Position numbers and translations under genes: made by a program
In this document: positions 20,775 through 33,217 of the stretch, in pieces
Numbering within the stretch: position 1 is the stretch's first letter
Layout of the letters: every line of letters begins with the position of its first letter
Source: Brevibacterium picturae
GTDB lineage: Bacteria > Actinomycetota > Actinomycetes > Actinomycetales > Brevibacteriaceae
NCBI RefSeq assembly: GCF_900105045.1
Contig: NZ_LT629739.1
Coordinates: 682,001 to 746,000, forward strand
Reading direction: 5' to 3'
Length of the DNA stretch: 64,000 nucleotides
The notes under the pieces: model-generated
Seen by the model: the letters and a program-made list of their open reading frames with translations, nothing else
The model's database searches: none
Told to the model about the DNA's origin: nothing

Positions 20775-21779
20775 CTACAGTCCCGAGTACGAGTGCAGGC
20801 CGTTGAAATACATGTTGACGACGGTGAAGTTGAAGATCACGGTGGCGATGCCGATGAGGTTGAGCACGGCGACCTTCGTCGGTCCCCAGCCGCGTGTGGC
20901 TCGAGCGTGCAGGTATGCGGCGTAGATGACCCAGACGACGAATGTCCAGATCTCCTTCGAGTCCCAGCCCCAGTAACGGCTCCAGGCCACCTCGGCCCAG
21001 ATGGCGCCGGCGATGAGGGTGAACGTCCAAGTGATGAAGCCGACCGCGGCGATCGTGTAGGAGAACCGTTCCAGGTCGATGCTTGCCGGCATCCGCCGCA
21101 TGAACCGCAGCCACTTCGGGTCCTTGTTCTCCTGCGAGCTCTTCAGTATCTGGAACACGGCGAGGATCGCGGAGATGTAGAGCAGCGAGGTCGACAGGAT
21201 CGCGATCGGCACGTGAATGGCGATCCAGTACGAATCGAGCGCCGGGATGAGCTTCGCAGCAGGGGTGTAGAAGACCGTGATCGCCAACCCCAGGCACAGG
21301 AGGACTCCGCCTGCCACGATGGTTCCCAGGTAGCGGATGTCCTTCTTCACGTTGACGATGAGGAACACGATGACGGTGATCGCAGTGGCGGTGAGGACGT
21401 ACTCCATCATGTTGCCCCACGGCACACGCATCACGGACAGTGCACGAGTCAGCACAGCAGCCGCATGGAGGATGACGGCAAGAACGAGAAGTGAGGTGCC
21501 GATCCTCGCCCCGCGCCGAGGCTTATCCCTGCCCGATCCGGTCGTGGTCTCAACCGAAGCGTCGGTCTGCGGCGGATCGAGAAGTGCTGTGGTGGTCTTC
21601 CTGTTCGTCCGGCGCACATTCGACGGCTTCGCAGCGCTGGCCGCGCCGGCTTCGGACTGTTTGAGCTCTCGCCCGCCGAACAGGTCGAAAGCATAGAAGA
21701 TCATGGCGACGGCGTAGACGATCATCGCCGAGATGATGAGCTGGTTCGACCACATTGCTAGGTCAGTGTTGACGTCCAT
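20775..21779 (-). CDS. ccsB: Cytochrome c biogenesis protein CcsB (ResC)
   Basis: A 334-residue multi-spanning membrane protein. With ResB it forms the system II synthase that delivers haem and attaches it to apocytochrome c outside the membrane. The tryptophan-rich haem motif WGWDSKEIW and a following HARATRGW are present. I moved the start to the ATG at 21779 because GGAGG lies five bases before it; upstream in-frame codons would only add an unlikely extension. It follows resB by 109 bp and closes the haem/cytochrome c series. Confidence 0.92.
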   Translation of the reverse strand: MDVNTDLAMWSNQLIISAMIVYAVAMIFYAFDLFGGRELKQSEAGAASAAKPSNVRRTNRKTTTALLDPPQTDASVETTTGSGRDKPRRGARIGTSLLVLAVILHAAAVLTRALSVMRVPWGNMMEYVLTATAITVIVFLIVNVKKDIRYLGTIVAGGVLLCLGLAITVFYTPAAKLIPALDSYWIAIHVPIAILSTSLLYISAILAVFQILKSSQENKDPKWLRFMRRMPASIDLERFSYTIAAVGFITWTFTLIAGAIWAEVAWSRYWGWDSKEIWTFVVWVIYAAYLHARATRGWGPTKVAVLNLIGIATVIFNFTVVNMYFNGLHSYSGL

Positions 21780-21888
21780 ACATCCTCCGCACCAGCGGTG
21801 CTCTTCCATTGCGTCGGGCTGTTGCTGTGTTCGGGTCGCCTGTGTCGGTGCCGACCCGCGACAATTCTACTCCGCGTAGTACCTAAAG

Positions 21889-23571
21889 CTAATCAATCGT
21901 CTTCCCCGACCTTGCGACCTCCGGCCCTGCGGCCCCGTCCTTTCGCTGTCCGGAGCTCCGACCTTCGGCTTCGTCCGCAGAATCGTCGGCAGTTTCGTCG
22001 GCGAGGTCCTTCGCCAGGTCCTTCGCCGCGCGTTCGACCATCGAGTCCTCACCTCGGGCCAGAGCCGCGACTTCTGCCTGGCCGTCCTTGATCCGCACCC
22101 ACATACGTCGACGCGGGATGAACAGGGACAACCCGAGCCCCAGCAGCACTGCGATCGCGCTGGCGAGCATCAGACCCTGCGTCGGGTCCTGGGAGATATC
22201 GACGGCGATGTAGCGTTTGACGCCGTCGAACGTCACCGAACCGCCATCGGGCAACTCCTGAGTCTCTCCCGGTGACAGCTGGATGAGCAGAGGATTGCCG
22301 GAGGCATCGGTCATCTCCGTCATATTCTCGGCCTCGATCGTGTACACCGACTGCGGCGTCCCGTCGTCGAGGCCCAGGTCACCGGTGTATCCGCTCATCA
22401 CAAGGTAAGGGTTGCGCAGCCCGGCAAAGCTCGACACCAGTTCGCCGTTCTCATTCTGGGTCGCGGTCGGTAGGAAGACACCGACGAATCCCATCTGAGT
22501 CCCCGCAGCGTCGGGGACCTTCATAACGCCCTCGGAGGTGTAGCCGGGATCCCCACCATCAGGGATGAACACCTGCGGGCCGGACTGCACGACCTGCCCC
22601 TTGGCGTCCTTGACCGTGACTTCCGGGGCGTACCCGTTTCCTGTCAGATAGACGCCCGTCCCGGCCACGCGCACGGGTTCGTTGACCCGCAGGGTGTGCT
22701 TCTCACTCTTCCCATCGGCAGTGGTCGTGACCTTCGCATCGAAGGTACGAGGCTGACCGAACTGGCTGCCCGGGGCCTGATCGTCGAAGGTGGCGTGGAA
22801 GTCGTCGAGTCTGAGCCGGAAGTCCGGCAGGTTGTCTGCGTCGTAATAGGAGCCCGGTTCGAACGAGTCGTAGGAGACCAGGGAGTTCGTGAAGGTGTCC
22901 CCTTCGACGAGGATCCGCTGACCCTCATAGCCGAACAGAGAACCGATCGCCATCGTCAGAGTCGCGACGAGGAGAGCGATGTGGAAGACGAGGTTGCCGG
23001 TCTCGCGCAGGTAGCCGCGTTCAGCCGCCACATGGTCCGTGTTGCGCACGGTCCGGTAGCCGAGCCTCTTCAGTCGGGCTTGGGCTGCATCGAGGAAATC
23101 CTGGTCCGCGGTTTCACGGGATTCGGCAGATCCCGTCGCCGAGGTGAAGGTTTCGTATCCGGGCATCCGACCCAACCGCCTCGGTGCCTTGGGCGGGGCC
23201 GAGCGCATGGCCTTCCAATGCTGGGCCGAACGAGGGATCACACAGCCGATGAGTGAGATCATCAGCAGGAGATAAATGGCGGAGAACCAGATCGAGGAGT
23301 ACACATCGAACATCTGGATCGTGTCGAGGAACTGGCCCCAGGCGCCGTTGGATTCGAGGAACGTGTTGACTCGGCCCGGGTCCTGGATGCGCTGCGGCAG
23401 CAATGAGCCCGGGATCGCCGCCATGGCGAGGACGAGGAGGAGGATCAGCGCCACGCGCATGGTCGTCAGCTGGCGCCACGCCCACCGGCACATGCCGATG
23501 AAGCCCAGCTGCGGCTGGCTCACTGCAGGCTTGCTGCTGCCGGCCTTCTTGTCGGCGGTCTTCTTCGCCAC
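21889..23571 (-). CDS. resB: Cytochrome c biogenesis protein ResB
   Basis: A 560-residue protein with a hydrophobic N-terminal part containing three membrane segments, a large external domain (about 230-460) and a further segment near 470. This is the ResB architecture of system II cytochrome c assembly. The GTG start shares one base with the ccdA stop. The last 60 residues are a charged, low-complexity cytoplasmic tail beyond the family core. It acts with CcsB, ResA and CcdA encoded around it. Confidence 0.9.
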   Translation of the reverse strand: MAKKTADKKAGSSKPAVSQPQLGFIGMCRWAWRQLTTMRVALILLLVLAMAAIPGSLLPQRIQDPGRVNTFLESNGAWGQFLDTIQMFDVYSSIWFSAIYLLLMISLIGCVIPRSAQHWKAMRSAPPKAPRRLGRMPGYETFTSATGSAESRETADQDFLDAAQARLKRLGYRTVRNTDHVAAERGYLRETGNLVFHIALLVATLTMAIGSLFGYEGQRILVEGDTFTNSLVSYDSFEPGSYYDADNLPDFRLRLDDFHATFDDQAPGSQFGQPRTFDAKVTTTADGKSEKHTLRVNEPVRVAGTGVYLTGNGYAPEVTVKDAKGQVVQSGPQVFIPDGGDPGYTSEGVMKVPDAAGTQMGFVGVFLPTATQNENGELVSSFAGLRNPYLVMSGYTGDLGLDDGTPQSVYTIEAENMTEMTDASGNPLLIQLSPGETQELPDGGSVTFDGVKRYIAVDISQDPTQGLMLASAIAVLLGLGLSLFIPRRRMWVRIKDGQAEVAALARGEDSMVERAAKDLAKDLADETADDSADEAEGRSSGQRKDGAAGPEVARSGKTID

Positions 23572-24335
23572 TAGATCACCACTTCGAAATCATAGATCAG
23601 ACCCTGCAGAGAGGTCATCCACGCGTTCCACAGCCCCGAGGCCATGAGCACGCCCAATACGATGAGCATGATGCCCCCAGCACGCACGATCGCAGTCTGG
23701 TGCCTGCGTACCCAGGTGAGACGGCCGGCGCCCTTGTGGATCGCCACCGCCAAGATGATGAAAGGAATGCCCAGACCCAGGCAGTACACGAATGCCAAGA
23801 GTGCCCCGCGCCAGATCGTTCCGTCTCCGCCGAAGCTCACCGACATCGACAGCACTGCCGACAGCGTCGGGCCCACGCAGGGTGCCCAGCCGAGGGCGAA
23901 GGTGGCACCGAGGACCGGTGCACCCCAGAGGCCTGCCTTGGGACGACCCCGGATCCGATGCTCGGTCTGGAGCAGGCCGAACCCGCCCATGAAGACGAAG
24001 CCGGCGATGATGACGACACCGCCGAGGATCCGGATGAGCACGCCCTGCCACTGCGAGAACATCGCGCCCAGGGCTGAGAACCCGGTCCCCAGCAGCACGA
24101 AGATTATGGTGAACCCGAGGACGAAGAGTGCAATCCCGACGACGACCCGCCAGGTCTCTTTGTCCCTGAGGGAGGATCCACTCAGCCCGGTGACATAGCC
24201 GACGTAGCCGGGGACCAACGGCAGCACGCAGGGTGAGGCGAAGGAGACGAGCCCGGCCAGTGCAGCCGCACCGGCAGCCAGAAGCAGCGGCCCGGTGAGA
24301 ACCGTTTGGGCGAACTCCGCCCCGATCCCACTCAC
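23571..24335 (-). CDS. ccdA: CcdA-type thiol-disulfide transmembrane transporter
   Basis: A 254-residue protein with six membrane segments. The conserved cysteine pair is in SFASPCVLPLVPG (Cys36) and GWAPCVGP (Cys153). CcdA carries reducing equivalents from cytoplasmic thioredoxin to external thioredoxin-like proteins, here ResA, so that apocytochrome cysteines are ready for haem. The GTG start overlaps the resA stop in a GTGA. Confidence 0.93.
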   Translation of the reverse strand: MSGIGAEFAQTVLTGPLLLAAGAAALAGLVSFASPCVLPLVPGYVGYVTGLSGSSLRDKETWRVVVGIALFVLGFTIIFVLLGTGFSALGAMFSQWQGVLIRILGGVVIIAGFVFMGGFGLLQTEHRIRGRPKAGLWGAPVLGATFALGWAPCVGPTLSAVLSMSVSFGGDGTIWRGALLAFVYCLGLGIPFIILAVAIHKGAGRLTWVRRHQTAIVRAGGIMLIVLGVLMASGLWNAWMTSLQGLIYDFEVVI

Positions 24336-24925
24336 TCTGCCTGCACGTCCTCGATGAGTCCCTTGAGCGTCGACTCATCGACCTCTCCCACGACTCGGGC
24401 CGCGGCGCGACCCTTCGCATCGAGGACGACCGTGGAAGGCGTGGCCTGGGGTGGGAGGACTCCCGAGAGCAGCGCCACCATGGCGCCGTCGGTGTCGAGC
24501 ATATTCGCGTAGGGGATCTGGTAATTCGAGATGAACGCGTTGGCCGCGGCCTCCTGGTCACGGACGTTGACGCCGAGGAACTGCACCTCATCGCCGAACT
24601 CTTCGGCCAGTGACTTCAGCGCCGGGGCTTCCTTCCGGCACGGCGGGCAGGCCGCGTACCAGAGGTTGATGACGACCGGGGTGGGTCGGATATCGGCCAG
24701 CGACATCGACTTCCCTTCGAGCGTCTCGAAGCTCAGCTCCAGCGGTTCGCCGCGTTCCTCGACAGCCACTTGAGACACGACACCGGAACCGGACACATAG
24801 CCCTGGTCGGATCCGGCCTGATCGGCCAGTTCATCGTTCTCGCTGCAGGCGCTGAGGACAACAGCGGTGCCGGCGACCAGTCCGGTCAGGAGTGTGCGGC
24901 GGTTCATCGGGTTGCGGGCATTCAT
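24332..24925 (-). CDS. resA: ResA/TlpA-like thioredoxin lipoprotein
   Basis: A 197-residue membrane-anchored thiol reductase. The N-terminus carries NRRTLLTG, which resembles a twin-arginine signal, and a lipobox LSAC with Cys27. The redox site is WYAACPPC (Cys93, Cys96) in a thioredoxin fold that ends near residue 195. It should reduce apocytochrome c cysteines outside the cell. The ATG overlaps the histidine phosphatase stop, and a second Met at codon 7 could also start translation. Confidence 0.9.
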   Translation of the reverse strand: MNARNPMNRRTLLTGLVAGTAVVLSACSENDELADQAGSDQGYVSGSGVVSQVAVEERGEPLELSFETLEGKSMSLADIRPTPVVINLWYAACPPCRKEAPALKSLAEEFGDEVQFLGVNVRDQEAAANAFISNYQIPYANMLDTDGAMVALLSGVLPPQATPSTVVLDAKGRAAARVVGEVDESTLKGLIEDVQAE

Positions 24926-25563
24926 GCTCCCGCCACCGCTTGCCCGGGTTGCAGATCTGCGCAGATGCTCTCGTAACTCACGGATACAAGTGTGGACGAT
25001 TCGAATGTGAAACTGGTGATAGATGCCAGGTCACACTCCCGTTTCCGAGGGTCGTGGACGAGCGAGCGCTCCTCCCCCGCCAGGCGTGTCATCCAAATCG
25101 GAAGCTGATGGGAGACGATGACTCCCACGGCCTCGGGGCCGTGCTTGGCGAGTTTTGTGCGCAGACTGGCCATGGCTGCCTGCATGCGGAGCACGATCTG
25201 CCTGTAGGGCTCGCCCCAGGACGGCGTCAGCGGGTTGTACAGGCGCACCAGATTGCGCGGCTCAGCCAGCCTGCGACCGTTGATCTTCTGCCCCTCGAAG
25301 GAGTTGGCGGCCTCGATCACACGGTCGTCGGTGAAGACAGGCAGGTCGAGTCGCTGATGCAGCGGCGTGATCGTCTGCTGGGCCCGCAGCAGCGGTGAGG
25401 CCACCAGCTCGACTGGGGGCACCGCGGCCGTGGCGAAATGCTCGCCGACGCGTCGGGCCATCTCGTGGCCGCGTTCGGTCAGGCCGAAGTTCGGCAGCCG
25501 ACCGTAGAGGATGCCCTCGGGGTTGTCTACCTCCCCGTGCCGGACCAGGTGGATCGTGGTCAT
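24922..25563 (-). CDS. Histidine phosphatase family protein (phosphoglycerate mutase-like)
   Basis: A 213-residue protein with the phosphohistidine motif RHGE at 8-11, a supporting arginine in YGRLPNFGLTERG and a later catalytic His in VIVSHQLPIW. Such enzymes remove phosphate from varied small molecules; no substrate can be read. Actinobacterial haem/cytochrome c clusters often carry this gene between hemL and resA, so a role linked to that pathway is possible. It overlaps both neighbours by ATGA junctions. Confidence 0.85.
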   Translation of the reverse strand: MTTIHLVRHGEVDNPEGILYGRLPNFGLTERGHEMARRVGEHFATAAVPPVELVASPLLRAQQTITPLHQRLDLPVFTDDRVIEAANSFEGQKINGRRLAEPRNLVRLYNPLTPSWGEPYRQIVLRMQAAMASLRTKLAKHGPEAVGVIVSHQLPIWMTRLAGEERSLVHDPRKRECDLASITSFTFESSTLVSVSYESICADLQPGQAVAGA

Positions 25564-26900
25564 CAGTTCGCCTGGGTGTTCGGTACCGCCGCTGCGGCCT
25601 TGGCCGCGGCGGGCAGGGCCGAGATGATCCGGTCGAGGATCTCATCGGTGTGGGCGTAGGAGAGGAACCAGGCTTCGAAGGCGCTGGGCGGCATGTGGAT
25701 GCCCTGATCGAGCATCGCGTTGAAGAACGCGGAGTAGCGTTCGACGTTCTGCGTGCGCGCATCGCCGTAGTTGATGACCTCGCGGTCGGTGAAGAAGACG
25801 GAGAACATCGAATTCGCCGACTGGATGGTGTGTGCGACTCCTTCGGCCTCCAGCGCCGAGGTGACCGCGGGCCGCAGAGCGTCTGCTGCGCGAGAGATGT
25901 GAGAGTACACATCGAGTTCGGTCGTCAGTTTCAGCGTGGTCAGACCGGCGGCCGTGGCCACGGGATTCCCCGACAGGGTCCCCGCCTGGTAGACGGGGCC
26001 GGTCGGTGCCAGGTGCTCCATCACGTCGGAGCGTCCGCCGAACGCCGCGGCTGGGAAGCCTCCGCCCATGACCTTGCCGAAGGTGAACAGGTCGGCAGGG
26101 CCTTCCGGGTAGCCGAGCGATTCGGCTTCGAAGCCGTACCAGCCTGCGGCGGAGACGCGGAAGCCGGTCATCACCTCGTCGCTGATCATCAGCGCGCCGT
26201 GGGCCTTGGTCAGGCGCCGAATGGTGTTGGTGAAGCCATCGCGTGGAGGCACGACGCCCATGTTTCCCGGGCTGGCCTCTGTGATGACGCAGGCGATCTC
26301 GTCACCGTGTTCGTTGAAGACGGCCTCCAGGCCGGCCGCATCGTTGTAGTCGACGACGATCGTGTCTGAGGCTTGGGCCCCGGTCACGCCCGGGGTGTCG
26401 GGCAGGGAGAAGGTGGCCAGACCGGAGCCGGCCTGAGCCAGCAGTGCATCGACGTGGCCGTGGTAGCAGCCGGCGAACTTCACGATCTTCGCCCGGCCGG
26501 TGTAGCCGCGGGCCAGGCGGATGGCGCTCATAGTGGCTTCGGTGCCCGAGGACACGAGTCGAACCTGGTCGACGGGGTCGACGCGGGCCACGATCTCCTC
26601 GGCGAGTTCGACCTCACCGGTCGACGGGGTGCCGAAGGAGAAGCCGTTGACGGCGGCTTCCTGCACGGCGGCGAGCACCTCGGGGCGGGAATGGCCCATG
26701 ATCATGGGCCCCCACGAACCGATGAGATCGATGTAGTCGTTGCCGTCGGCGTCGCGCAGCCATGCTCCCGTCGCCGAGGTGACGAAGCGCGGGGTGCCTC
26801 CGACGGCCTTGAAGGCCCGCACCGGTGAGTTCACTCCACCGGGGATGACGTGTTCGGCGCGCTCGAACAGCGCTGCCGACTTCGCGGTCTCGTGTTTCAT
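25563..26900 (-). CDS. hemL: Glutamate-1-semialdehyde 2,1-aminomutase
   Basis: A 445-residue PLP enzyme that makes 5-aminolevulinate from glutamate-1-semialdehyde, the product of HemA. The PLP lysine is in [10 protein letters not shown], the N-terminus has [13 protein letters not shown], and the aspartate is in [10 protein letters not shown] start at the ATG at 26900 because AGGAGA lies five bases before it. The open frame continues 45 codons upstream but would overlap the marR 3' end and encode unrelated sequence. It is 37 bp after marR. Confidence 0.95.
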
Positions 26901-26937
26901 GCGTTCTCCTGAAGTAGTCGCCGGGTCGGTGATCTGC

Positions 26938-27453
26938 TCAGTCGGCAGACGTCGTTGGTTCGATGTCGGACGGTGGTGTGTCGACGGGGCCCTTGCCGAT
27001 CTCACGCATATGTGCGGTGACCTTTCCGAACACACGCCCCAGGGTCGCCATCTCCTCCGGTTCGAGCAGATCGACGAGGTGGTCGCGGACGCCTCCCACG
27101 TGGAGGGGTGCCATGGTGACGAGGAGTTCCCAGCCGGCCTCGGTCATCTGGCAGTTGACCCCGCGCCCGTCTTCGGGGATGGCGAAGCGCTCGAGGAGGC
27201 CCTTCTTCTCCATCCGGGCCACGCTGTGGGTCAGCCGGGAGCGCGACATCGTGGTGTCCATCGCGAGCAGAGCCATCCGCATCGTGCGGTTGTCATGTTC
27301 GCTCAGCCGCACCAGGATCTCGTATTCGGGCATGCCGATGCCGTGGTTGTCACGCAGCTCCTTGTCCAGCTGCACGGTCAGCAGCTGTGAGCCGGTGAGG
27401 TAGCTCCTCCAAGCCTTCTGATCGGGACTGCTCAGCCATCGTGGCTCACTCAT
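26938..27453 (-). CDS. MarR-family transcriptional regulator inside the haem operon
   Basis: A 171-residue winged-helix regulator. The recognition region is around [22 protein letters not shown] with the DGRGVNC wing, typical of MarR. Its ATG overlaps the hemB stop in an ATGA, and hemL follows after 37 bp, so it is made together with haem enzymes. That position suggests haem- or redox-responsive control, but no ligand residues can be named and an unrelated target is possible. Confidence 0.88.
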
Positions 27454-28457
27454 CAGTACGCTCCGCTCGGTTTCTGAGAATTCAGTCGCTGGGCGACTTC
27501 CGTGGCCCAGTAGGTCAGCACAGCATCGGCACCGGCGCGTTTGAAGGCGATGAGGGACTCGTCGATTGCCCGTTCACGGTCGATGGCTCCGGCTGCGGCC
27601 GCGAATTCGATCATCGCGTATTCCCCGGACACCTGATAGGCCCACACGGGCACCGGCGATTCGCAGGCCGCCTCGGCGAGGACGTCGAGGTAGGGCATGC
27701 CGGGTTTGACCATGACGACATCGGCGCCTTCGGCCAGGTCGAGGTCGAGTTCGCGCATCGCCTCGCGGCCGTTCGCGGGATCCTGCTGGTACGTTTTGCG
27801 GTCGCCCTGAAGTTCCGAGTCCACAGCCTCGCGGAAGGGACCGAAGAACGCCGAAGCATACTTCGCCGAGTAGGCCATCACGACGACGTCGGTGAAGCCT
27901 TCGAGGTCGAGCGCCTCTCGGCAGACCCCGACCTGGCCATCCATCATGCCCGACAGTCCCACCACGTGGGCTCCGGCGCGTGCCTGGGCCACGGCCATGG
28001 AGGCGTAGCGCGTCAGTGTTGCGTCGTTGTCGACTCCGCCGGCGGAGTCGAGGACTCCGCAGTGCCCGTGGGAGGTGAACTCGTCGAGGCAGAGATCGGC
28101 CATGATGACCGTCGTATCGCCGAGGTTGTCCCGCAGCAGCGTCAATGCGCGGTTGAGGATGCCCTCGGGGTCATCGGCCTGGGAGCCGTCGTTGTCCTTG
28201 TGCTCCGGGATCCCGAAGAGCATGAGCCCGCCGACTCCGGCGTCCACAGCCTCGTTGGCGGCTTCGAGCAGGGAGTCCAAGGTGTGCTGGACGACCCCGG
28301 GCATGCTGGTCAGCGGCGCCGGTTCCCTCAGTGTCTCCTTGACGAACAGGGGCAGGATGAGATCGGCCGGGTGCAGGCGCGCCTCGGAGACGAGCCGGCG
28401 CAGTGCCGGTGTCGTCCGCAGGCGACGGGGCCGAACGGTTCCGGGGACCAATGTCAT
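27453..28457 (-). CDS. hemB: Delta-aminolevulinic acid dehydratase (porphobilinogen synthase)
   Basis: A 334-residue enzyme joining two 5-aminolevulinate molecules. The Schiff-base lysines lie in [11 protein letters not shown] and [11 protein letters not shown]. In the metal-binding stretch, [14 protein letters not shown], the usual three zinc cysteines are replaced by Cys123, Asp125 and Cys133, so the site is mixed. One base separates the hemD stop from its ATG. The family call is certain; metal preference is open. Confidence 0.95.
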
Positions 28458-28458
28458 G

Positions 28459-30051
28459 TCAGGCCTTCTTTCTGCGGCGCTTCTGGCTGGGGCGCGTCGG
28501 GGTGGTCCCCGCCGCCAGGTCGTCCTCGCGTGCGGACATCGCGAACTCGACGAGTCCGTCGATGAGGGAGGTGAGGTTGGCCTCCTCGGCGAGGACGTCG
28601 ACTCGCAGTCCGTGTTCGGCCGCGGTGTTCGCCGTGGCCGGTCCGATGCAGCAGATCACCGAGGTGGGCGCCGGTTTGCCCGCAATCCCGACGAGGTTGC
28701 GCACCGTCGACGAGGAGGTGAAGAGGAAGGCGTCGAAGTCGCCGGCCTTGATGGCCTCCCGAATCGGGGCGGGCGGCGGTGAGGCGCGCACGGTTCGGTA
28801 GGCCGTGACGTCGTCGGGGTCCCAGCCCTTTTCCAGCAGGCCGGCCACGAGGACCTCGGTGGCTATGTCGGCGCGCGGCAGCAGCACCGCGTTCATGGGA
28901 TCGATGTCATCGACGTAGTCGGGCCAGGCTGCGGCCAGGCCGCGAGCCGAATGTTCGCCGTCGGGAACCAGATCGGGGGTGATGCCCCAGTCGATGAGGG
29001 CGGCGGCGGTGCGTCCTCCCACGGCCGCGACCTTCACGCCCGAGAGTGAGCGCGAGTCGAGGCCGAAGTCCTCGAACCACATGCGCACCGCGCGGACGGC
29101 GTTGACCGAGGTGAAGCCCACCCATTCGTAGGATCCGTCGACGAGGCCGCGGATCGCCTTCTCCATCTGCGTCGGTGTGCGTGGGGGTTGGACGGCGATC
29201 GTGGGGACAACGGTGCCGACGGCACCCAGCTCACCCAGCGCCTCGGCGGTGGAGGTGCCCTGTTCCTTCGTCCGCGGAATGAGAACCTGCCAACCGAAGA
29301 GTGGCTTGGTTTCGAACCAGCTGAGTGCCCCTCGTGATTCCACGCCCTGTCCCATGATGACCACCATACGATCTCCACCGGTCTGCGCCATCGTCAGGGC
29401 CTGCCCCAAGGTGGTCTCCACACTCGTCTGATCGGTGGTGGAGATGCCCCAGCCCAGGAGTACCTTCGTGTCCTCGTCCCACCCGTCGTCGAGCAGGGCG
29501 CGGAGGGCCTGTTCGTGGTCGGCTGTCGTGCCCGTGAGCACGTGGGTCGTATTGCGGTGTCGGGAGACGTCGACGTGGGTCTGCGGGCCGGCCTCGATGA
29601 AGCGGACCGAACGAACACGGTTCGTGGTCAGGGCGGTGCCCGTGTACGCGGAGGTGGCCGCGGACAGTCCGACCCCGGGCACGATCTCGACCTCGACCTC
29701 GGCCTTGCGGCACACGGCGGCCTCTGCCGTCGTCGTGGTGAAGAGGATGCCGTCGTCGCTGCTCAGCCGCACCACGGTCTTATCGGGGCGAGCCAACTCG
29801 GCGAGCTTGCGTCCCCGGGTGGAGGCCGTTGCACCCAATTGCGCGGCCTCGATGATCTCCGTGGCCTGCGGCACGTAGGCGGTGACGATCTCCGAATGCA
29901 CGTGGGTGTCGTAGACGACGATCTCTGCATTCGCGAGGATGTCGGCACCGCGAATCGTCATCAGACCCGACTCACCGGGACCGCTGCCGACGAAGACGAC
30001 GCGGGGTGAGACGGGCAGAAGGCGACGGGGCTGGACCTGGCCGGTTGTCAT
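28459..30051 (-). CDS. hemD: Uroporphyrinogen-III synthase with N-terminal SUMT-like domain
   Basis: A 530-residue two-domain protein. Residues about 15-250 resemble SAM-dependent uroporphyrinogen-III methyltransferase (CobA), with [16 protein letters not shown] near the N-terminus. Residues about 260-500 are a HemD cyclase that closes hydroxymethylbilane to uroporphyrinogen III. The loop normally reading GGDPxxFGRG is replaced by [14 protein letters not shown], so methyltransferase activity is doubtful. The ATG overlaps the hemA-hemC stop. Actinobacteria often encode this fusion, and HemD is the function needed here. Confidence 0.85.
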
Positions 30052-32525
30052 ACCTGCTCCTGGACTTTGACAGGGGTGAGGTGATCTTCGGACTGCGCCG
30101 GATCGATGCCGAGCTGCCCGAGCAGATCCTCGGCCGCCGCGGTGCCGAGTTCATCGGCGAGACGAGCGAGCTCCTTACCTGTGATCGACAGTTGGTTCGC
30201 GCTGCTCGATCCCAGATCCACGTCCGGAGTCACGGGCAGCGGGGCGGACTTGCGGGTGCGGGCGAGGATTCCGTCGTCATCGGCCATGACCGCGTCGACG
30301 ACGAACTCCGAACCCTGGATCGCGGCCAAGGCACCGATGGGAGCCGAACAGCCGGCCTCGGCCCGAGACAGGATCGCTCTCTCACAGGTCACAGCCAGAT
30401 CGGTGGTTTCGTCATGGAGACGCTTGAGCTCATCGCGGACCTCGGCATCTGCGACCATGACCTCGTTGTCGAGGGCGAAGGGACTGTCGGCGCCTCGGGT
30501 CTCCACGGCCAGGGCGCCCTGGCCGGGGGCCGGAAGCATCGTGTCGAAGTCGAGCAGATCGGTGGCCTCGGCCAGACGACCGATGCGACGGACTCCGGCC
30601 GCTGCCAGCACGACGGCGTCGAGCCGACCGTCGCGGACGTGGGCGATGCGGGTGTCGACGTTTCCGCGCACCCCGCGGACCTCGATGTCGGGGCGCGCGG
30701 CACGCAGCTGCACGGCACGCCTGGGTGATCCGGTGCCGACGACGCTGCCCGCGGGCAGCTGGGCGAAGCTGAGGCCGTCGCGGCCGATGAGGACATCGGC
30801 CGGATCGACCCGCGGAGGGATGGCAGCCATCTGGATGCCCGCCTCGGGGGTGGTGGGGAGATCCTTGAGCGAGTGCACGGCGATGTCGATCTTGCCCTGG
30901 TGCAGGGCCTGCCGCACGGCGGAGACGAAGACCCCGGTGCCGCCGAATCCGGTCAGGGGCGACATATTGACATCGCCTTCGGTCACGACCTCGACGATCT
31001 CGACGCGCCAACCCGTCAGGGCCGCCAGCTGATGGGCGATCGCCGTGGACTGGGAGCGTGCGAGTTTCGAGCGGCGGGTGCCCAGGCGAATCGTGCGTCC
31101 GGAGAAGTGCTCGGGTTCGACGATGTCGAGGGTGTGATCGGCCACCGGGCGCACACCGTCTGCTTCGACGTGGTTCGCGCTCGAGGCGGTTGCCACTTTG
31201 GTCTCGGGTTCCGTGATCGCATGGGCGACCTTGTTCGTGGGCAGATCGAAGAGCTGCATGAGCGCCTGCGCGTAGTCGACGTCGGACTCCGTGACGGCCA
31301 GTTCCTTGACCTTGACCGTCGGCGTGTGGATGAGCTTCTCCGCCACCCGGTGCAGGGACTTGCGGATCTCGGCGAAGGCCTTGTCATCGACCTCTGCGCC
31401 GATCTTCTTCTCCAGACGCTCCGTCTCCGCGGCGAGCACGTCCTTGGCATGACTGCGCAGGGCCGTGACCGTGGGTGCGACCGATCGCTCCTTGGCACCG
31501 GACTCGAGCTTGGTCAGCTCCTCCCCGATGATCGCGCGCACTGCTTCGACGGTCTCGACGACCGCAGCGTCGCGCTGGTTCGCGGAGCTCGTGAGCATGG
31601 TCCGGATCTCTGCGAGGCCGAAGAGTGCGACATGCTCGAATTCGCGCACCGTGGGATCGATGTCATGCGGCAGAGCAAGATCGACGAATGCCTTGTTCGC
31701 TGCGCCCTTGGGGTTCTGGGACAGTCCGGCCTGGATGTCCTCGCGAGTGACGACGACTTCGCGGGCACCGGTGCAGGAGATGATGAGATCGGCGTCTGCG
31801 ATCTCCTCGGCCAGGATCCGGGAGGTCAGTTCGCGGGCCCGGCCGCCCACCTCGGCGACGAGGCGCTCGGCCTTGTCCACGGTCCGGTTGAGCACGGTGG
31901 TCTGAGCCACGCCCTCCTTGTGCAGTCCGGAGACGACGAGGCCCGACATAGCACCGGCACCGATGACCAGTGCGTTCGCAGCCCGCAGAGAGCCGATGTG
32001 TGCCTGAGAGGCTTCGAGTGCGGCGCTGAAGAGTGAGCGGGCGACCTCGTCTAGTCCGGTCTCCGAGTGGGCGCGTTTGCCCACCCGCAGGCTCTGCTGC
32101 AGCGCATGGGAGAGGCCGGATGTCAGTGCGCCGGCCTGCAGGGATTCAGTGAAGGTGGAACGAAGCTGCCCCAGGATCTGGGCTTCGCCGATCGCCATCG
32201 AGTCCAGGCCGCAGGAGACCTTGAGCAGGTGTTCGAGGGCCTGGGTGTCGTAGTGGGCATAGAAGTGCCCGGCGATGTCCTGCCATTCCTTGTCGATCGA
32301 GGACACGAGGGCGTTGCCGAGGTCGGCGAGCCCACCGTGGAAGGCGGTGACATCGGCGATGAGCTCGAGACGGTTGCACGTCGAGAGGACCGCGAGTCCC
32401 TCGACATTGTCGCCGGCCAGAGCGTCGGTGCGCAGTGCTCCGACCTCACCGGTGCCGAATGCGAGAGCGTCCAACATGTCGATCGGGGCCGACTGATGGG
32501 AAATGCCGAGAACCAAGAGAGTCAA
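30048..32525 (-). CDS. hemA-hemC: Fused glutamyl-tRNA reductase and hydroxymethylbilane synthase (HemA-HemC)
   Basis: One 825-residue frame encodes two haem enzymes. Residues 1-440 are glutamyl-tRNA reductase: the catalytic Cys50 in STCNR, the Rossmann motif VIGAGAMSG near 187-195 and a C-terminal dimerisation helix. Residues about 476-800 are hydroxymethylbilane synthase, starting TIRLGTRRSKLARSQS and carrying the dipyrromethane-cofactor Cys726 in EAGCSAPIG. A linker of about 35 residues joins them with no stop or frameshift. A TTG start with GAGGAG eight bases upstream overlaps the rex stop in a TTGA. Both active sites look intact, so the protein should catalyse two non-consecutive steps. 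Confidence 0.93.
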   Translation of the reverse strand: MTLLVLGISHQSAPIDMLDALAFGTGEVGALRTDALAGDNVEGLAVLSTCNRLELIADVTAFHGGLADLGNALVSSIDKEWQDIAGHFYAHYDTQALEHLLKVSCGLDSMAIGEAQILGQLRSTFTESLQAGALTSGLSHALQQSLRVGKRAHSETGLDEVARSLFSAALEASQAHIGSLRAANALVIGAGAMSGLVVSGLHKEGVAQTTVLNRTVDKAERLVAEVGGRARELTSRILAEEIADADLIISCTGAREVVVTREDIQAGLSQNPKGAANKAFVDLALPHDIDPTVREFEHVALFGLAEIRTMLTSSANQRDAAVVETVEAVRAIIGEELTKLESGAKERSVAPTVTALRSHAKDVLAAETERLEKKIGAEVDDKAFAEIRKSLHRVAEKLIHTPTVKVKELAVTESDVDYAQALMQLFDLPTNKVAHAITEPETKVATASSANHVEADGVRPVADHTLDIVEPEHFSGRTIRLGTRRSKLARSQSTAIAHQLAALTGWRVEIVEVVTEGDVNMSPLTGFGGTGVFVSAVRQALHQGKIDIAVHSLKDLPTTPEAGIQMAAIPPRVDPADVLIGRDGLSFAQLPAGSVVGTGSPRRAVQLRAARPDIEVRGVRGNVDTRIAHVRDGRLDAVVLAAAGVRRIGRLAEATDLLDFDTMLPAPGQGALAVETRGADSPFALDNEVMVADAEVRDELKRLHDETTDLAVTCERAILSRAEAGCSAPIGALAAIQGSEFVVDAVMADDDGILARTRKSAPLPVTPDVDLGSSSANQLSITGKELARLADELGTAAAEDLLGQLGIDPAQSEDHLTPVKVQEQV

Positions 32526-33217
32526 TTCCTGTGCTCCTCAAAACCTGGATTGAGCGGTGCCGAATCAAGCGCCGAATAGTATGCGAGTACTTGCAGCTCA
32601 CTGGCCAGATCGACTTGATGCACACGGACCGAGTCCGGGGCGTCGAGCACGGTGGGTGCGAAGTTCAGGATGCCGCGCACGCCTGCGTCGGCGGCGATGT
32701 GCGCCGCCGCCGGTGCCGCGGATGCGGGTACTGCCATGACGACGAGGTCGATATCCTCGGGCCAGGTGGAAAGTTCGGTGAGGTCGGAGACCGGCAGAGT
32801 GCCGATCACGGTTCCGATCTTGGCCTCATCGGTGTCGAAGATCGCGGTCAGTGAGAGACCGCGACGCTTGAATCCTGCGTAATCGGCCAGGGCCGAGCCC
32901 AGCCGACCGGCACCGATGATGGCGACGGTGCGCGCCCGGTCGAGGCCGAGGAATGTCCGCAGAGTCGAGGCGAGGTCCTCGCAGGAGTAGCCGACCCCGC
33001 GCCGACCCGAGCGTCCCAATTGGGACAGGTCCTTGCGCAGAATCGACGACGAGACGCCGCTGCGGGCCGCCAACGCCTCCGAAGAGATGGTTGACTGGCC
33101 CGTCGCGGCGATCGTCTCAACCGTCTGCAGGTAGATCGGGAGTCGGGAGATGACGCGTTCGGGCACGTCCTTGCGAACGACACCCTCAATGCTGTTGGCG
33201 GACAGAATCTCGCCCAC
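32522..33217 (-). CDS. rex: Redox-sensing transcriptional repressor Rex
   Basis: A 231-residue protein. An N-terminal winged helix (about 20-85, with ALAARSGVSSSILRKDLSQL) is followed by a Rossmann domain with IIGAGRLGSALADY. Rex senses the NADH/NAD+ ratio and represses respiratory genes when NADH is low. Here it heads the haem series and overlaps hemA-hemC by TTGA, so it is produced with the pathway it may control. The GTG at 33217 follows AAGGAG at a rather long spacing. I found no obvious Rex operator in the short upstream gap. Confidence 0.94.
   Translation of the reverse strand: MGEILSANSIEGVVRKDVPERVISRLPIYLQTVETIAATGQSTISSEALAARSGVSSSILRKDLSQLGRSGRRGVGYSCEDLASTLRTFLGLDRARTVAIIGAGRLGSALADYAGFKRRGLSLTAIFDTDEAKIGTVIGTLPVSDLTELSTWPEDIDLVVMAVPASAAPAAAHIAADAGVRGILNFAPTVLDAPDSVRVHQVDLASELQVLAYYSALDSAPLNPGFEEHRN

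Follow-up and report, generated by a model that had tools for sequence, protein, structure and literature searches.

A single-frame hemA-hemC fusion in Brevibacterium: distribution, junction and apparent origin

We examined a 64,000-nucleotide stretch of the Brevibacterium picturae genome (contig NZ_LT629739.1 of assembly GCF_900105045.1, positions 682,001 to 746,000; hereafter the window). Between positions 30048 and 32525 of its minus strand lies a single uninterrupted frame of 825 codons, which holds a complete HemA (glutamyl-tRNA reductase) and a complete HemC (hydroxymethylbilane synthase). The gene, called hemAC below, starts with a TTG at 32525 that overlaps the rex stop codon, and its own stop overlaps the start of hemD. 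Five Pfam domains, each above its curated cut-off, follow one another in HemA-then-HemC order, all on the minus strand. The HemA part consists of the catalytic domain GlutR_N (PF05201; residues 6-156, 32058-32510), of a nucleotide-binding domain of the Rossmann type, Shikimate_DH-like (PF01488; residues 174-308, 31602-32006), and of the dimerisation domain GlutR_dimer (PF00745; residues 329-428, 31242-31541), which has the motif LFDL at its end. The HemC part comprises Porphobil_deam (PF01379; residues 479-681, 30483-31091) and the C-terminal domain Porphobil_deamC (PF03900; residues 711-778, 30192-30395). The NCBIfam models for the whole enzymes also match the hemAC product, with 333.9 bits for hemA (TIGR01035, cut-off 209.55) and 283 bits for hemC (TIGR00212, cut-off 164). 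No second GlutR_N or Porphobil_deam match was found elsewhere in the genome, which is one contig of 4.44 Mb. Under single-domain naming such a protein is labelled as either HemA or HemC; UniProt automatic annotation presumably names some of them multifunctional fusion proteins.

The residues expected of both enzymes are in place. Across 22 aligned fused proteins, C50, R52, E54 and H99 of the HemA half (the first and last of them within GlutR_N) and K554, D555, R602, R603, R620, R626 and C726 of the HemC half are invariant, all of them residues with known catalytic roles. Asp555, in the Porphobil_deam domain, aligns with the HSMKD motif of 1ah5, and Cys726, the cofactor cysteine of the C-terminal domain, with the cysteine of its GCQVPIG motif. 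In E. coli HemC the dipyrromethane-cofactor cysteine and the catalytic aspartate are Cys242 and Asp84. The two cysteines that the initial annotation had singled out, Cys50 in STCNR and Cys726 in EAGCSAPIG, were thus correctly read. Judging from the kept catalytic residues, both halves would be active, and the hemAC product is very probably a bifunctional glutamyl-tRNA reductase and hydroxymethylbilane synthase on one chain.

The initial annotation had called for a search for HemA-HemC single chains across the family. Our family sample included 57 Brevibacterium genomes and 3 genomes of other genera. An intact single fused frame, 820-963 aa long, is present in 54 of the 57 genus genomes, and the two halves are joined at the junction in 56. 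In the 57th (G015), hemAC is divided over two contigs, with the break inside the linker. The other two interrupted genes carry a run of Ns (G030) or a one-base deletion (G033), in both cases within HemC and with the junction joined; the deletion lies past it. No reversion to separate genes was seen among the 57 genomes. None of the three genomes of the other genera has the fusion: their hemA and hemC are separate, overlapping and in different frames. The single-frame fusion proposed for the window is therefore confirmed, by the Pfam and NCBIfam matches and by its presence throughout the genus. The error at the junction that had been feared (a stop or frameshift at 31100-31250) was not encountered, since the linker, read in the coding frame, is free of stops in all 57 genomes, as far as their sequence reaches. 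The possibility of a chance open frame in GC-rich DNA was rejected on the same count: linker stops occur in 0 genomes for the coding frame and in 22 and 20 of the 57 for the other two (for G015, only the part on its HemC contig was counted). A sequencing or assembly artefact might be suspected from the two genes broken inside HemC and from the contig that ends in the linker; it is scarcely conceivable given the 54 intact frames, several of them from one-contig assemblies.

A linker between the halves had been foreseen, and it exists; its length, put at about 35 residues, had been underestimated. From LFDL, the end of the HemA core, to RLGTRRS of HemC there are 51 residues in the window, 32 of them variable and 19 more conserved. 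The variable linker (residues 429-460, 31146-31241) carries a conserved ADGxxP at its end and is followed by the conserved junction peptide VADHTLDIVEPEHFSG (residues 461-476, 31098-31145), whose first residue, Val461 (31143-31145), is encoded by GTG in the window genome. Across the genus the linker ends in a nearly invariant stretch of 17 residues, ADGxxPVADHTLD(V/I)(V/I)EP: D at position -5 is kept in 56 of the 57 genomes, G at -4 in all 57, as are V, H, T, D, E and P. Six genomes (L061, L063, L069, L070, L072 and L046) have linkers of 100-151 residues, in which the combined fraction of A, G, P, S and T is 0.70-0.76. Five of these six sit in one six-member clade of the tree, the sixth member of which (G032) has a linker of 56 residues. 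Rates of change were estimated by the simple Nei-Gojobori method in the 38 genomes that share the same 32-residue linker (the broken G033 included). The linker had a dN/dS ratio of 0.21 and the junction peptide one of 0.14, as compared to 0.16 for HemA and 0.07 for HemC residues 477-676.

Relatives outside the genus indicate where the junction comes from. In the three family genomes from outside Brevibacterium, the stop of hemA overlaps the start of hemC, whose frame is +2 with respect to that of hemA. The HemC of one of these genomes (G419) opens with VSDHTFDIVEP and continues to RLGTRRS; in the fused proteins RLGTRRS is mostly preceded by PVADHTLD(V/I)VEP, and the window junction reads VADHTLDVVEP. 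An N-terminal extension of this type is absent from HemC of the other two genomes. Val461 aligns with the GTG start of G419 HemC and, because the two peptides match, marks the old start of hemC, the junction peptide from Val461 on being derived from the former HemC N-terminus. The left half of the conserved stretch does not have such a counterpart, as the HemA tail of G419 has no ADGxxP. When the hemC frame of G419 is followed upstream of its start, it gives RRAGGRL, and it is possible that a sequence of this type was the source of that left half. When the HemA and HemC cores were joined and placed on a tree, all 54 intact fusions clustered together (SH-aLRT 99) and G419 was their neighbour (94); since the tree was built by a quick method and the tool flagged long branches, the placement of G419 is less sure. 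The simplest account of these sequences is apparently a single fusion event in the common ancestor of Brevibacterium, in which the formerly overlapping neighbours hemA and hemC would have been joined by a single net frame change.

Whole-genome searches were confined to genomes of the phylum. Among 396 genomes sampled from the order, 394 from the class and 396 from the phylum, three overlapping sets in which 35, 2 and 1 genus genomes, respectively, were matched, no full-length fusion without a stop was found outside Brevibacterium (for the class, among the matches listed); with E limits of 1e-130 for the phylum and 1e-140 for the order, a very diverged fusion could be hidden. Nine joined matches outside the genus have both genes in one frame but with at least one stop between them: three are from the phylum sample and six are from genomes of one genus, labelled g114 (L112-L117) and perhaps mycobacterial, which belong to another family and in which hemA and hemC share a frame with one TAG between them. 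The g114 genes are one base change short of a fusion. No fusion was present among eight order genomes from outside the genus, seven of which were picked because their HemC frame is long and one (G053) because its HemA frame is. Plasmid records with a match numbered 118, and 7 of them covered at least 80% of the query; 3 of the 7 are annotated there as two genes and 4 are unannotated. An independent HemA-HemC fusion, in one frame and without a stop, was thus not seen elsewhere in the phylum among the sampled genomes.

Does the fused gene yield one chain, or do HemA and HemC work as separate enzymes, the chain being made whole and then cut at the junction peptide, or HemC being also started internally? 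We regard separate enzymes as unlikely, but several observations weigh against a single chain of defined build. The linker ahead of the relic valine has its minimum length of 32 aa in 38 of the 56 genomes measured and reaches 151 aa at its longest, a spread that speaks against a fixed geometry; an AlphaFold2 model from a 28-row alignment reached a mean pLDDT of only 36.4 and a pTM of 0.25, for which low row diversity is the likely cause. The conserved 17-residue peptide, in a variable linker and just ahead of HemC, is placed where a processing site might lie. Some in-frame ATG, GTG or TTG is found in the junction of 50 of the 57 genomes, with a Shine-Dalgarno-like match scoring at least 4 in 18. 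In the close group of the window, 11 of 12 genomes share a GTG that precedes the relic start by three codons, and in 8 of the 11 a GAGG lies upstream of it. The codon directly ahead of RLGTRRS is GTG in 26 of the 57 genomes and ATG in one, so that 27 have one or the other at that place. Of the 36 valines encoded there, 26 have GTG, against 1387 of the 4453 valines in these genes, the related genomes not being independent; this over-use could possibly reflect a cryptic HemC start or mere shared ancestry. The window itself has Ile479 (31089-31091) at that position. Extra free HemC in some species would accord with these counts and is not the reading that we favour: shared ancestry may explain the start codons at the junction, no recounted start position is common to more than about half of the genomes, and the commonest one lacks a Shine-Dalgarno-like match scoring at least 4. 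The relic codon itself is GTC in 33 genomes, GTG in 14, GTT in 6 and GTA in 4: the valine has been kept and the start codon has not, the codon being other than GTG in 43 of the 57. In 7 of the 57, no ATG, GTG or TTG at all occurs between the HemA core and RLGTRRS. As to cleavage, a protease is suggested by none of the results, and descent from the HemC N-terminus explains the right half of the conserved stretch. Finally, the linker shows in-frame purifying selection. Because the start codon has been lost in most genomes, seven junctions are start-free and dN/dS is low, the linker is most likely translated and constrained as protein. Across the lineage the junction is thus free of stops and frame changes, and its linker evolves as protein, as expected of a true gene fusion.

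If HemA and HemC are indeed made as one chain, the HemA half would dimerise through its C-terminal domain, and each dimer would therefore hold a pair of tethered HemC domains. As the most likely outcome, the amount and lifetime of HemC would be tied 1:1 to those of the committed enzyme of the pathway. Substrate channelling between the halves, already judged not obvious in the initial annotation, is unlikely: HemL and HemB catalyse the steps between HemA and HemC, and both are separate proteins encoded by their own genes in the same operon. Channelling, complex assembly and equal expression are the explanations offered for gene fusions in PMC4921024, of which equal expression fits HemAC most easily; a fixed 1:1 ratio or a shared turnover is a plausible reason for keeping the fusion. 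Neutral fixation, with no specific advantage, has roughly the same probability as any one benefit. The frame change at the overlapping stop and start would then have fused the genes once, and the harmless product would have been inherited because the C-terminus of HemA and the N-terminus of HemC tolerate extensions. We rate this as a real possibility, a little short of an even chance. Only one small change is needed, since the genes overlap in the same order in the three family genomes of other genera, and since in the six g114 genomes they already share a frame and have one stop between them; the highly variable linker length and the single origin found in the sampled genomes also agree with neutrality. 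Against it stand the retention of the fusion, without any reversion, in every genus genome but the one whose linker is interrupted by a contig end (56 of 57) and the near invariance of ADGxxPVADHTLD(V/I)(V/I)EP in an otherwise loose linker. A regulatory tether, by which HemC would come under the degradation or haem feedback of HemA (for example through pupylation) and porphobilinogen use would drop with its supply, has indirect support. According to the review PMC10991733, mycobacterial GtrR is pupylated, its level rises more than 2-fold without Pup, and the recombinant soluble M. tuberculosis form was isolated with haem bound. The genome of the window also has a match to Pup. We nevertheless consider such a tether doubtful: less HemC while HemB runs on would, by reasoning, risk a build-up of porphobilinogen. 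Still more speculative, and in our opinion improbable, is that the conserved stretch, the left half of which does not come from the pre-fusion HemC, gives the committed enzyme control over HemC, acting either as a docking segment or as a hinge that responds to haem or to a protease. Were this control element real, HemAC would be a self-balancing unit of haem synthesis.

The genes around hemAC lie on the same strand in the order rex, hemAC, cobA/hemD-like, hemB, MarR-family gene, hemL, histidine phosphatase, thioredoxin-like, DsbD_TM, ResB and cytochrome c assembly protein. The upstream gene rex (32522-33217) encodes a redox-sensing repressor. A match to it precedes hemA-hemC-hemD-hemB-hemL in 51 of the 57 genus genomes and in all 3 family genomes of other genera; for G015, the count took in the rex-HemA contig only. 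In 5 of the 57 (L048, L049, L050, L065 and L068), the stretch that was read has no rex match, so that hemAC may there have escaped redox control or have its regulator elsewhere. A search for the Rex operator consensus gave nothing upstream of rex; elsewhere in the window it gave two weak matches, a number equalled or exceeded in 14 of 100 shuffles. The gene whose start overlaps the hemAC stop (28459-30051) is a cobA-hemD-like fusion with the Pfam domains TP_methylase and HEM4. Its CobA-like half clears the threshold of Pfam, yet with 98 bits it stays below the NCBIfam cobA-type cut-off of 185, and its HemD half is below the NCBIfam cut-offs among the matches listed; by these scores the product is diverged, and its CobA and HemD activities are putative. 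Next come hemB (27453-28457), a MarR-family regulator (26938-27453, PF01047) and hemL (25563-27035), whose family match begins at residue 50. The MarR-family gene overlaps the N-terminus of the longest hemL frame, and the true hemL start may lie further downstream. The haem genes are followed at 20775-24925 by genes of the cytochrome c maturation type (the thioredoxin-like, DsbD_TM, ResB and cytochrome c assembly genes), which suggests one haem-to-cytochrome c unit.

The same gene order, rex-hemA-hemC-hemD-hemB, is that of the Streptomyces rex-hemACD(B) operon, described in PMC5355995 as controlled by Rex. There, hemA and hemC have separate locus tags, whereas the window has one frame for both and lacks the operator consensus upstream of rex. 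Fusions of haem enzymes are themselves known. Table 3 of PMC4921024 lists a HemC-HemD fusion (porphobilinogen deaminase and uroporphyrinogen-III synthase), which likewise involves HemC but joins consecutive steps around hydroxymethylbilane, whereas HemL and HemB act between the steps of HemA and HemC; the same source gives other fusions of neighbouring haem enzymes, namely precorrin-2 oxidase/ferrochelatase with methyltransferase and methyltransferase with HemD. The cofactor section of PMC11237513 reports a HemA-HemB fusion from a single Sulfolobus assembly; it, too, joins HemA to a later, non-consecutive enzyme, but the partner is HemB and the case is confined to one assembly, whereas HemA-HemC is spread over a whole genus. 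CobA-HemD and HemC-(CobA-HemD) fusions are also described there, the former in 3448 of 5525 Actinobacteria; they belong to the same pathway with different partners, and the gene downstream of hemAC is itself of the CobA-HemD type. HemA-HemC is not named in that cofactor section nor among the haem fusions of PMC4921024, and no description of it appeared in the titles and abstract openings of the open-licence literature matches listed. The HemA-HemC fusion is thus genuine, but it departs only modestly from the haem-enzyme fusions already known. A frequent explanation of metabolic fusions, given in PMC4921024, is the handling of an unstable intermediate between consecutive steps. HemAC joins non-consecutive steps throughout a genus, and a related genus shows what appears to be the pre-fusion state; together they provide a natural test of whether a tie in ratio or turnover to the committed enzyme is enough to keep two enzymes fused.

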